Below the pieces are notes generated by a model that searched no databases, had not been told where the DNA came from, and saw only the letters and a program-made list of their open reading frames with translations. Position numbers and translations under genes: made by a program. This document shows, in pieces, positions 35,845 to 39,252 of a stretch of DNA of 47,166 nt (positions are counted from its first letter, which is position 1; the number at the start of each line of letters is the position of its first letter). Source of the DNA: an uncultured Acidobacteriia bacterium. GTDB taxonomy: Bacteria > Acidobacteriota > Terriglobia > Bryobacterales > Bryobacteraceae. The stretch is taken from contig CAIRXZ010000154.1 of NCBI GenBank assembly GCA_903882645.1, forward strand, positions 1-47,166, in the 5' to 3' direction.

Positions 35845-35941
35845 CCGGGTGGGGCAGGTTGGAAACCTGCGAGCCGATTGCCAATCGGCTCGCGCGGCGG
35901 TTGCCAACCGCCGCGCAGCTTGACAAGCTGCCCCACCCCGG
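35845..35941. repeat. Multi-hairpin repeat upstream of pntAA
   Basis: Outer arms (CCGGGTGGGGCAG and CTGCCCCACCCCGG) enclose four small inverted repeats: CAGGTT/AACCTG, GCGAGCCGATT/AATCGGCTCGC, GCGGCGGTT/AACCGCCGC and AGCTT/AAGCT. This is a highly ordered multi-branch structure. It occupies most of the ndk-pntAA gap, ends 46 nt before the pntAA start and is non-coding, although one frame stays open through it. Confidence 0.7.
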
Positions 35942-35987
35942 AGCGGGCCATTCTGCCGCACGCGCGCTGAGCTTATCGGGAGGCAAG

Positions 35988-37148
35988 ATGGGCTTGACCG
36001 TTGGGATCGTGACCGAGTCCGCGCCGGGCGAGCGCCGGGTCGCCATGGCGCCGGGTTCGGTGAGCTTGCTCGCCAAGACCGGCGCCCAGGTGATTCTGCA
36101 GACCGGGGCCGGCGTCGCGGCTGGATTCCCGGACTCCGAGTACCTCGAAAAGGGCGCCCGCATCGCCGCCCGGCGCGAAGACGTGTTCGCGGCGGCCGAC
36201 GTAATCCTTCAGGTCCGCGCCTTAGGCGCCAATCCGCAGACCGGCGGCGCGGATCTGGCGCTGTTCCGCGCGGGTCAAACAGCCATCGGCTTCGGCGAGC
36301 CGCTGACGTCCCCCGAGGCCGCGCGCGAACTGGCGGCCCGCGGCGTGAATTTCCTGGCCATGGAGCTGATGCCGCGCATCACGCGCGCCCAAAGCATGGA
36401 CGCGCTTTCCTCCATGGCGACCATCGCGGGGTACAAGGCTGTCCTGATCGCGGCCGATTCCCTGCCCCGCATGTTCCCCATGCTCATGACCGCCGCCGGC
36501 ACCGTGGCGCCGGCGCGCGTGCTGGTGATCGGCGCGGGCGTCGCCGGACTGCAAGCCATCGCCACCGCCAAACGTCTGGGCGCGGTCGTGAGCGGCTACG
36601 ACGTGCGTTCGGCAGTGAAGGAGCAGGTGGAGAGCCTGGGCGCCCGCTTCGTCGTGCTGGACATGGAGAGCGCCGGAGCCGAAGGCGCGGGCGGCTACGC
36701 CAAAGCCATGGACGAGGCGTTTTACCAGCGGCAGCGCGAGCTTGTGGGCGGCGTGCTGGCCGAACAGAACGTCGTGATTTCGACCGCGGCCGTGCCCGGC
36801 AAAAAGGCGCCCATCCTGATTACCCGCGAGATGGCGGCCCGCATGGCGCCCGGATCGATCATCGTGGATATCGCCGCCGAGCGCGGAGGCAACTGCGAGC
36901 TGACCCGGCCCGGCGAGACGGTCGAGGCCGGCGGCGTCCGCATCATCGGCCCGCTGAATCTGGCCTCCACAATTCCCTACCATGCCAGCCAACTGTACGC
37001 GCGGAACATCGCGACATTCTTAAAGTATTTAATTAAGAATGGTGAGCTAAGTATTGACCGCGAAGACGAAATCGTGCGCGAGACGCTCGTCACTTTTGGC
37101 GGCGAAGTGGTGCATCCGCGCGTGCGCGAACTCATCCAAGCTCAATAA
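35988..37148 (+). CDS. pntAA: NAD(P) transhydrogenase alpha-1 subunit (NAD domain)
   Basis: The 386-residue soluble domain I begins MGLTVGIVTESAPGERRVAMAPGSV, with the alanine-dehydrogenase-like fold. It has the NAD-binding loop RVLVIGAGVAGLQAIATAKRLGAVVSGYDVR, MITREMAARMAPGSIIVDIAAERGGNCELT-type motif at about residues 285-310, and a C-terminal helix. It starts at ATG 35988 after GGGAGG; the open frame upstream of it is non-protein repeat DNA. The complex couples proton entry to NADPH formation from NADH. Here the alpha chain is split in two (this and pntAB), an arrangement found in many bacteria. Confidence 0.96.
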   Translation: MGLTVGIVTESAPGERRVAMAPGSVSLLAKTGAQVILQTGAGVAAGFPDSEYLEKGARIAARREDVFAAADVILQVRALGANPQTGGADLALFRAGQTAIGFGEPLTSPEAARELAARGVNFLAMELMPRITRAQSMDALSSMATIAGYKAVLIAADSLPRMFPMLMTAAGTVAPARVLVIGAGVAGLQAIATAKRLGAVVSGYDVRSAVKEQVESLGARFVVLDMESAGAEGAGGYAKAMDEAFYQRQRELVGGVLAEQNVVISTAAVPGKKAPILITREMAARMAPGSIIVDIAAERGGNCELTRPGETVEAGGVRIIGPLNLASTIPYHASQLYARNIATFLKYLIKNGELSIDREDEIVRETLVTFGGEVVHPRVRELIQAQ

Positions 37149-37157
37149 GGAGCATCC

Positions 37158-37454
37158 ATGCCTTCGAATCTCGAGTTGAGTCTGTATGTCTTCATGCTGG
37201 CGACCTTCGTCGGGTTGGAGGTGATCCGCAGGGTCTCGCCCTTGCTGCACACGCCGCTGATGTCCCTGACCAACGCCATTTCGGCCATCTCGGTGGTAGG
37301 CGCCATTCTGATCACCGGCGCCGAGGGCGCCACCACCCTCAGCAAGGTTCTGGGATTCATCGCCATTACCGCCGCCGTCACCAACATCGTGAGCGGCTTC
37401 CTCATCACCGACCGCATGTTGAAGATGTTCCACAAGCGGGGGGAGAAGAAGTAA
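37158..37454 (+). CDS. pntAB: NAD(P) transhydrogenase alpha-2 subunit (membrane)
   Basis: The 98-residue protein has three hydrophobic helices (LSLYVFMLATFVGLEVI, LMSLTNAISAISVVGAILI, VLGFIAITAAVTNIVSGFLI) and the conserved PLLHTPLMSLTNAIS. It forms the first membrane helices of domain II and corresponds to the C-terminal part of longer PntA chains. It starts 9 nt after pntAA and its stop overlaps the pntB start as TAATG. Confidence 0.95.
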   Translation: MPSNLELSLYVFMLATFVGLEVIRRVSPLLHTPLMSLTNAISAISVVGAILITGAEGATTLSKVLGFIAITAAVTNIVSGFLITDRMLKMFHKRGEKK

Positions 37455-38194
37455 TGGCCCACCTGGTGAACTACATTTACATCGTTTCGGCGGCGCTGTT
37501 CGTTCTCTCGCTCAAATGGATGAACTCTCCGGCCACGGCGCGGCGCGGCGTGTTCGCCGGCGAAATCGGGATGTTGATGGCCGTTACCGGCACGCTGCTG
37601 GCGCACCATGTTTTCAATTGGCAGTGGGTTTTCGCGGCGTTCCTGATCGGCATGGCGGCCGGCATTCCCATCGCCTACATCATGCCCATGACGGCCGTGC
37701 CGCAGCGGACCGCCATGTCTCACGCCTGCGGCGCGCTGGCGGCGGCCCTGGTGGGGACAGCGGAATTCTACCGGAACCCCAACCAGCCGAAGTACATCCT
37801 GGTGGCGCTCATGATCGAGACGCTGCTCGGCTTCCTCACCTTCACGGGAAGCCTGATGGCCATGGGCAAGCTCCAGGAAGTGCTGCCGCAGCGGCCCATC
37901 ACCTACCGCAACCAGAACGTCATCAACCTGGGATTGTTCGTGATCGCGGCGGCTCTCGGCGTGAGGCTGGTCCTGGTTCCCACCGACACCTGGATGTTCC
38001 CGGTGTTCGCGGGTCTGGCGCTGCTGTTCGGCGTGCTGCTCATCATCCCCATCGGCGGGGCCGACATGCCCACCGTGATCGCGCTGCTGAACTCCTACGC
38101 GGGCCTTTCGGCGTGCGCCATGGGATTCGTGCTGGACAACAAGCTGCTGGTGATCGCCGGCGCTCTCGACGGCTCCTCGGGCCTGATCCTCTAG
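37454..38194 (+). CDS. pntB: NAD(P) transhydrogenase beta, membrane part, cut by amber stop
   Basis: This 246-residue open frame is the N-terminal membrane domain II of PntB: MAHLVNYIYIVSAALFVLSL, then helices through LLNSYAGLSACAMGFVLDNKLLVIAGALDGSSGLIL. It ends at TAG (38192-38194). The next codons in the same frame, ATC ATC ATG TGC AAG, continue the family sequence (IIMCKAMNRS), and domain III follows at once. So exactly one codon of an otherwise intact ~459-codon pntB reads stop. A Ser or Thr codon (for example TCG, one change away) would be expected there. Whether this is a true mutation, a sequence error, readthrough or a genuine split is open. Confidence 0.85.
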   Translation: MAHLVNYIYIVSAALFVLSLKWMNSPATARRGVFAGEIGMLMAVTGTLLAHHVFNWQWVFAAFLIGMAAGIPIAYIMPMTAVPQRTAMSHACGALAAALVGTAEFYRNPNQPKYILVALMIETLLGFLTFTGSLMAMGKLQEVLPQRPITYRNQNVINLGLFVIAAALGVRLVLVPTDTWMFPVFAGLALLFGVLLIIPIGGADMPTVIALLNSYAGLSACAMGFVLDNKLLVIAGALDGSSGLIL

Positions 38195-38200
38195 ATCATC

Positions 38201-38830
38201 ATGTGCAAGGCCATGAATCGTTCGTTCGCGAACGTGCTGTTTGGGGCGTTCGGGCAGCTTCAGACGAAGGCCGGCCACGTGGAACAGCGCCCCGTGCGCA
38301 GCGCCAGCCCCGAAGAAGCCGCGTCGATTCTGGAAGCCGCATCGAGCGTGATTATCGTGCCGGGCTACGGCCTGGCCGTAGCGCAGGCGCAGCACAAGAT
38401 CCGCGAATTGTTCGACGCCCTCACGCGCCGCGGCGTGGACGTGAAGTTCGGGATTCACCCCGTGGCGGGCCGCATGCCGGGCCACATGAACGTGCTGCTG
38501 GCGGAAGCCGACATCCCCTACGACCGCCTTTTCGAGATGGACGATATCAACGGCGAGTTCGCCCAATGCGACGTGGCCTTAGTCATCGGAGCAAACGATG
38601 TGACGAACCCCGCGGCGCGCACCGACAAGTCCAGCCCCATTTACGGAATGCCCATCCTGGACGTCGATAAAGCGCGGACGGTGATGGTCATCAAGCGCTC
38701 CATGAACCCCGGTTTCGCCGGCATCGACAACCCGCTGTACTACATGGACAAGACCCTCATGCTGTTCGGCGACGCCAAGGCGTTCGTATCGGAGATATTG
38801 AAGGAGTTGCCCGCCCGGGCGGCGGCGTAG
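38201..38830 (+). CDS. pntB: NAD(P) transhydrogenase beta, NADP(H) domain III
   Basis: This 209-residue frame continues PntB after the amber codon, in the same reading frame, six bases after the stop. It begins MCKAMNRSFANVLFGAFG and contains the NADP-binding fold: IIVPGYGLAVAQAQHKIREL, VKFGIHPVAGRMPGHMNVLLAEADIPYDRLFEMDDIN, VALVIGANDVTNPAAR and the conserved KRSMNPGFAGIDNPLYY. All expected motifs are present. No ribosome-binding site precedes the ATG, so independent translation would be inefficient unless coupled to the upstream stop. If made separately it would be a free soluble domain III. Confidence 0.85.
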   Translation: MCKAMNRSFANVLFGAFGQLQTKAGHVEQRPVRSASPEEAASILEAASSVIIVPGYGLAVAQAQHKIRELFDALTRRGVDVKFGIHPVAGRMPGHMNVLLAEADIPYDRLFEMDDINGEFAQCDVALVIGANDVTNPAARTDKSSPIYGMPILDVDKARTVMVIKRSMNPGFAGIDNPLYYMDKTLMLFGDAKAFVSEILKELPARAAA

Positions 38831-39252
38831 GGTCGGGCGGCGGCGAAGACTATTACCTATCGGGAATTCCGTCAAGCGGAATGGCTGCCACGGTAAAATG
38901 AAAACATCGTGCAGAAACTTGTCGGAAAGCGCCGGCTGAACCCCACTATACGGCCAGGCAACCGCATCGCCGACCTGCGCGGATTCCTGCGCCGGTCCGG
39001 CGTCCTTGAACTGCGGCGAGGCGAGCGAGAAGCTGAACTGGAGCGCGACCGGAGCCGCATGCGGGGTACGGGGTAGCCGCTTGAAGTGCGGGTGGCGCGT
39101 TGTGGAGCGAGCCTCCGGCTTGCCATGCCGCCATTCCTGGCGGCATTCTCTCAATGGCTGGCGGATGCCCGCAAGAGAGCGGGCGTGACAGGCCGGAGGC
39201 CCACTCCACGGAAGCGGAAAGGCAGCCTGCCGGAAGCTGACCGCCCGCCCCT
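38831..39252. other. Intergenic region with cloverleaf repeat copy B
   Basis: Between pntB and the converging efflux operon. The repeat at 39101-39210 is listed separately. The segment 38890-39080 contains no frame I can support; a GTG-started frame at 38910 (about 55 codons, Arg-rich) is most likely chance. No clear terminator follows pntB. Confidence 0.45.
39101..39210 (-). repeat. Cloverleaf-forming dispersed repeat, copy B
   Basis: The same element as 22256-22362 in reverse orientation. It has outer arms TGTGGAGCGAGCCTCCGGC and GCCGGAGGCCCACTCCACG and two inner hairpins (GCCGCC...GGCGGC, GCCCGC...GCGGGC). Differences from copy A are concentrated in the middle, between the two inner hairpins. 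Confidence 0.75.

Follow-up and report, generated by a model that had tools for sequence, protein, structure and literature searches.

An in-frame TAG codon in the transhydrogenase gene pntB of an acidobacterial draft genome: very probably a recent nonsense change or a consensus error

The transhydrogenase of Rhodospirillum rubrum is built of three chains, and the linker that joins domains II and III of the enzyme probably mediates domain III movement. The Thermus thermophilus enzyme is likewise described as three chains in PMC5742237, which also states that NADP(H) is bound much more tightly by isolated domain III than by the complete enzyme. For Escherichia coli, a paper on the human enzyme (PMC5026163) places Ser250, Ser251 and Ser256 in TM14; substitution at these three residues is reported there to enhance activity, and substitution of Met259 to be inhibitory.

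The window analyzed here is one entire contig (C154; 47,166 nucleotides) of an uncultured Acidobacteriia bacterium of the Bryobacteraceae. Its source genome, hereafter G000, is a draft assembly of 5.27 Mb in 366 contigs with an estimated completeness of 99.3%; G001, G002, and G003 denote the remaining three genomes of the same genus in our comparison set. The plus-strand genes around the stop codon under study are sucC, sucD, ndk, pntAA, pntAB, and pntB, all of which except sucC were identified by Pfam. The last three form an ordinary proton-translocating transhydrogenase operon in the order pntAA-pntAB-pntB (Table 1), in which the final base of pntAB (37454) overlaps the start of pntB. The start codon of pntAA (ATG 35988) was picked from the sequence, and Pfam was run on the open reading frame at 35859-37148.

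Translation of pntB (37454-38830) yields 246 residues and then a TAG codon, beyond which the same frame continues for 211 residues to its terminal TAG. The upstream half matches positions 2-248 and the downstream half positions 251-455 of the 456-position PNTB profile (PF02233), and the gene read through is a single 602-bit match containing one TAG; the agreement of each half with the profile lies far beyond chance. The profile is matched by the membrane part as well as by domain III, and pntAA and pntAB adjoin the gene as they should in this family, but the one unbroken frame that would join the two parts is interrupted at 38192-38194. Translation and Pfam together bear out the original prediction that codon 247 of pntB, a conserved gene that is open elsewhere, is an in-frame TAG. 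The locus is the sole PNTB match within the G000 assembly (E <= 0.001); hence, no second allele contig is present there. Among named genomes, the best matches to domain III (best 80 of at least 589) come mostly from Acidobacteria, including two Bryobacteraceae, with some from Planctomycetes and Verrucomicrobia.

Table 1. Features of the transhydrogenase locus and of the other in-gene stops; positions without a prefix are those of the window.
Feature	Position	Strand	Evidence
pntAA, subunit of the proton-translocating transhydrogenase with the NAD(H)-binding domain I	35988..37148	+	Pfam AlaDh_PNT_N and AlaDh_PNT_C
pntAB, first transmembrane helices of domain II	37158..37454	+	Pfam PNTB_4TM, 113.9 bits
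Upstream 246 codons of pntB, transmembrane domain II as far as TM14	37454..38191	+	Pfam PNTB; alignment to PDB 9l76_C
In-frame TAG, codon 247, where E. coli PntB has Ser256 (TM14)	38192..38194	+	Translation; relatives
Intact downstream part of pntB, with the rest of TM14, the linker and the NADP(H)-binding domain III	38195..38827	+	Pfam PNTB; 1e3t match; dN/dS
First ATG past the TAG, at the E. coli Met259 position; possible, unsupported re-initiation site	38201..38203	+	Sequence
Normal terminal stop of pntB, TAG	38828..38830	+	Translation
TAG of ABC exporter, in the nucleotide-binding domain	L183:4775-4777 (G000:C128)	-	Pfam and relatives
In-frame TAG of GH2 glycoside hydrolase	L167:4257-4259 (G000:C53)	-	Pfam and G001 copies
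Lone TAG of TPR gene of G003	L273:1128-1130 (G003:C72)	-	TPR repeats on both sides

Upstream of pntAA, the window also carries a dispersed, cloverleaf-like hairpin element of ~88 bases (35849-35936; DNA fold z -9.3), which ARAGORN calls as tRNA-Ala and the Rfam tRNA model does not. Matches to this element number 61 in G000 (both orientations, with overlapping places counted), 31 in G001, 5 in G002, and 0 in G003. Possibly, the element is a small repeat of the mobile or REP-like type.

To place the stop in the protein, we aligned residues 4-246 of pntB to residues 5-255 of PDB 9l76_C (462 residues), which we take to be E. coli PntB. Since residue 246 corresponds to residue 255 and the second residue past the stop to residue 258, the stop falls at position 256, presumably Ser256 of the E. 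coli protein. The last helix before the hinge had been proposed as its location, a placement that the alignment makes more precise: the TAG lies inside TM14, at Ser256, shortly ahead of the domain II/III linker. The solved isolated domain III 1e3t, presumably that of R. rubrum, begins at MNRS, which is the seventh codon past the stop in our gene.

Apart from G000, the comparison set contains three genomes of the genus (G001, G002, and G003), and all three have TCG (Ser) at the place of the TAG. More broadly, 138 of 143 PntB loci span the site (one place, L004/L005, is counted twice, and some genomes give two loci), and every one of the 138 has a sense codon there: Ser in 95, Thr in 40, Ala in 2, and Cys in 1. 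With G000 included, PNTB was matched in 162/237 genomes of the family and in 174/396 genomes of a phylum sample; among the matches listed, which leave out the weakest, G000 is the only genome with an in-frame stop inside the match. A TAG conserved in relatives, which would speak against a recent mutation, was found neither at the 138 spanning loci nor in the matches listed. The single base change put forward in the original prediction agrees with the sister TCG and with the sense codons at all spanning loci; of the two ancestral codons it had named, TCG stands, and ACG, from which two changes would be needed, does not. A PNTB match is missing from 75 of the 237 family genomes, and from 46 of the 148 with completeness of 90% or more and contamination of 5% or less; given that so many lack it, loss of the transhydrogenase would be tolerable in this group.

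Sequence downstream of the stop looks well preserved. Between G000 and G001, domain III (199 codons compared) has a dN/dS of 0.066 and domain II (246 codons) one of 0.108, and the polarized amino-acid changes on the G000 branch amount to none in domain III (199 codons) and one in domain II. By these values, domain III shows no decay and has been under selection in the past; therefore, either the lesion is a new one, or the organism does not carry it, or else domain III continues to be expressed.

We consider it very probable that the pntB TAG is a fresh single-base nonsense change, either a recent mutation or an error of the draft consensus. The stop is found in one genome, stands one base from the codon of the sister genomes, and is followed by undecayed sequence. 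The TCG (Ser) of the sister genomes would have become TAG by one base change, which may have arisen as a null mutation of recent date within the population sampled or as a consensus error of the draft assembly, and we put the chances of these two origins at about even. If the TAG is real, ribosomes would halt past codon 246 and release a membrane fragment that lacks both the last part of TM14 and the whole of domain III, so that the transhydrogenase would be expected to be inactive.

The intact downstream half might instead belong to a real split gene, in which translation terminates at TAG 38192 to begin anew at ATG 38201, and domain II together with a soluble domain III forms a four-subunit transhydrogenase. 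The restart codon named for this arrangement does exist: ATG 38201 is the first possible one, only 6 bases 3' of the TAG. The open reading frame beyond the stop almost coincides with the solved isolated domain III (1e3t and structures of the same sequence), starting MNRS; domain III is undecayed, and breaks of the chain elsewhere in the enzyme are normal, as in T. thermophilus with its three chains (PMC5742237). Yet no other pntB is broken at this place among the family and phylum matches listed, and in 24 genomes chosen from those searches and inspected closely, no break was seen at the domain II/III boundary; a split that had become established should be conserved in relatives, and this one is not. 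ATG 38201 codes for a residue that is conserved in intact relatives; thus, finding an ATG here does not point to a start. It has no Shine-Dalgarno-like motif ahead of it, either by eye or by a motif set whose first match lies 28 codons past the pntB TAG, although coupling without such a motif is conceivable. Pattern scanning of 38000-39000 gave no promoter-like site (0.3 expected) and one terminator-like site (38219-38234), against 0.6 expected by chance. Moreover, the break would cut inside TM14 and part domain III from its linker, and a detached domain III might trap nucleotide, considering how much more tightly the isolated domain binds NADP(H). Nothing in the sequence singles out ATG 38201 as a selected restart, and we regard a split gene with re-initiation, as had been suggested for this locus, as highly improbable.

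Several candidate split or broken pntB genes in other genomes did not hold up. Nine genomes of the same phylum (G442, G498, G528, G552, G560, G561, G577, G584, and G614) drew suspicion because each has two PNTB matches, with a comparatively low best score; in all nine, both matches lie in one open frame. These loci (L222 and L224-L231) have overlapping matches in frames of 396-811 codons, mostly 520-551, and their profile matches suggest PntB variants with an enlarged membrane domain. Other two-match genomes among the 24 inspected are not split genes: several are cut by contig ends, and others are fragments. G605 has a PNTB fragment of 42 positions with one TAG, next to other pieces. G400 and G518 have matches below the cut-off, with two TGA codons in the former and one TAG and one TAA in the latter, and each also has an intact copy. 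Finally, an apparent frameshift in pntB of G001, near the same codon, is an artifact of an NN in the assembly 17 bases past the Ser codon. The G001 assembly (L284 = G001:C505, L282, L283, and L285) has seven N runs in 41 kb, six of them NN; consequently, the NN at pntB is not peculiar to this site.

Stops within other genes of G000 were surveyed in a sample of 1,114,017 bases (1.11 of 5.27 Mb), in which only stops, and not frameshifts, were scanned for. The scan gave 53 sites with coding signal on both sides (26 TAG, 14 TAA, and 13 TGA), 13 of which were checked by Pfam on both sides, with the other 40 judged by eye. Three of the 13 are in-gene stops, namely those of pntB, an ABC exporter, and a GH2 enzyme (Table 1). 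In the ABC exporter, ABC_membrane and the first part of ABC_tran precede the TAG, and the rest of ABC_tran follows it. The corresponding codon specifies Gln in relatives (CAA in G001 and CAG in G002), and the copies of G001, G002, and G003 are open, with frames of 665, 628, and 651 codons, respectively. This is the one ABC_tran match out of 56 in G000 with an internal TAG; for comparison, none of the 27 Pkinase matches in that genome contains a stop. In the GH2 enzyme, GH2 domains lie before the TAG and DUF4982 and GH2_C5 past it, and the downstream part was found at E <= 1e-30 in G000 and G001 only, among 31 genomes searched. The place of the TAG is Tyr in both G001 copies, the closer of which has one internal TAA at a locus that also has N runs, and decay of this gene may go back further. 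Outside G000, the TAG of the G003 TPR gene is probably a similar lone in-gene stop.

The remaining sites of the scan gave no further confirmed case. Five of those checked by Pfam are junctions of two families (L169:8302, L173:12747, L256:14627, which is scpA/scpB, L249:1671, and L258:3650), and at another three, which have the appearance of natural ends, the domain before the stop is almost complete (L212:13177, L181:13417, and L212:11142). Neither side gave a Pfam match at L206:13784 or L173:8097, nor at L163:5594, a site of an earlier scan only. By eye, the other 40 are gene junctions, such as sucC/sucD and pntAA/pntAB, or antisense frames. On a separate note, a thioredoxin-like C-terminal tail (L212:10987-11139, minus strand; G000:C285) stands in frame directly past a redoxin gene that ends in TAG and is possibly the remnant of a second gene.

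Since at least two other lone in-gene TAGs occur in the same assembly, pntB is not special within G000. The three confirmed stops and the likely one of G003 are all TAG, with no TGA or TAA. In this codon usage, TAG is the stop favored among one-base changes (57%), and four of four would be TAG with a chance of ~0.10; the pattern is not significant, yet it is not nothing. The three G000 sites correspond to Ser, Gln, and Tyr, each of which has a codon one base from TAG; this variety, rather than one consistent amino acid as recoding would lead one to expect, fits scattered point changes and not a reassigned codon. The tetranucleotide CTAG, to which the change from TCG to TAG gives rise, occurs less often in the sample than expected (139 versus 351), and this depletion points weakly to a recent or erroneous change.

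A run of lone TAGs could also mean that TAG is read through or suppressed, with an amino acid inserted and full-length PntB made. All three such codons in G000 are followed by intact sequence, no in-gene TGA or TAA was confirmed in the 1.11-Mb survey, and an inserted residue could be tolerated at this place, where substitutions of E. coli Ser250, Ser251, and Ser256 are reported to enhance activity (PMC5026163). Against this stands the evidence on how the genome uses TAG. G000 encodes RF1 (527 bits), and TAG terminates 248 of the 665 coding open reading frames in the 1.11-Mb sample, a share like that of G001 (10/29), G002 (18/42), and G003 (51/110); neither loss of RF1 nor depletion of TAG as a terminator, the marks of recoding, is seen in this genome. 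A second stop within ten codons follows 33/247 TAG, 51/298 TGA, and 17/119 TAA terminators, so tandem stops in the sample are not enriched behind TAG compared with TGA and TAA. From both sets of counts, TAG is an ordinary stop in G000, and it terminates both sucC and pntB itself. The suppressor tRNA(CUA) that the original prediction proposed to look for did not turn up: none of the 43 tRNAs that ARAGORN calls in G000 has the anticodon CUA, in a set that is incomplete (no tRNA-Phe and no tRNA-Ile(GAT)). Rfam gives 44 tRNA matches, and the 44th is a fragment. The RNA downstream of the TAG shows no unusual structure relative to shuffles (z -0.48), and no Rfam family reaches its gathering score at 35-40 kb of the window. 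Readthrough, which had been listed among the explanations of the stop, appears extremely improbable. Taking the two alternatives together, we think it very unlikely that the lineage has either a working two-chain transhydrogenase, restarted at ATG 38201 after TAG 38192, or readthrough of amber codons in several genes by a suppressor tRNA missing from the assembly.

Among the tRNA-like sequences of G000, a 3' tRNA fragment (L162:100-170, G000:C366; 29.5 bits) that ARAGORN does not call is perhaps an integration remnant.

The pntB TAG is mainly a caution for annotation, as gene-calling software would presumably report two shorter genes here. Were the stop real, fixed, and functional, it would provide a natural test of whether domain III needs tethering to the proton channel. 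Compared with known systems, the locus is like the three-chain PntAA-PntAB-PntB transhydrogenase in its gene order, its three genes, its domain content, and the Pfam coverage of all its parts, and solved relatives exist for both halves of the G000 PntB; it differs from that enzyme in a single in-frame TAG at the Ser256 position. The lesion, a lone stop found in one genome, separated from the sister codon by one base and set in an otherwise intact gene, resembles nonsense pseudogenes and single-base errors of draft consensus sequences. We found no departure from these, and the same assembly holds more cases. Overall, this isolated in-gene nonsense stop looks more like a recent point mutation or an error of assembly than a new type of split gene.
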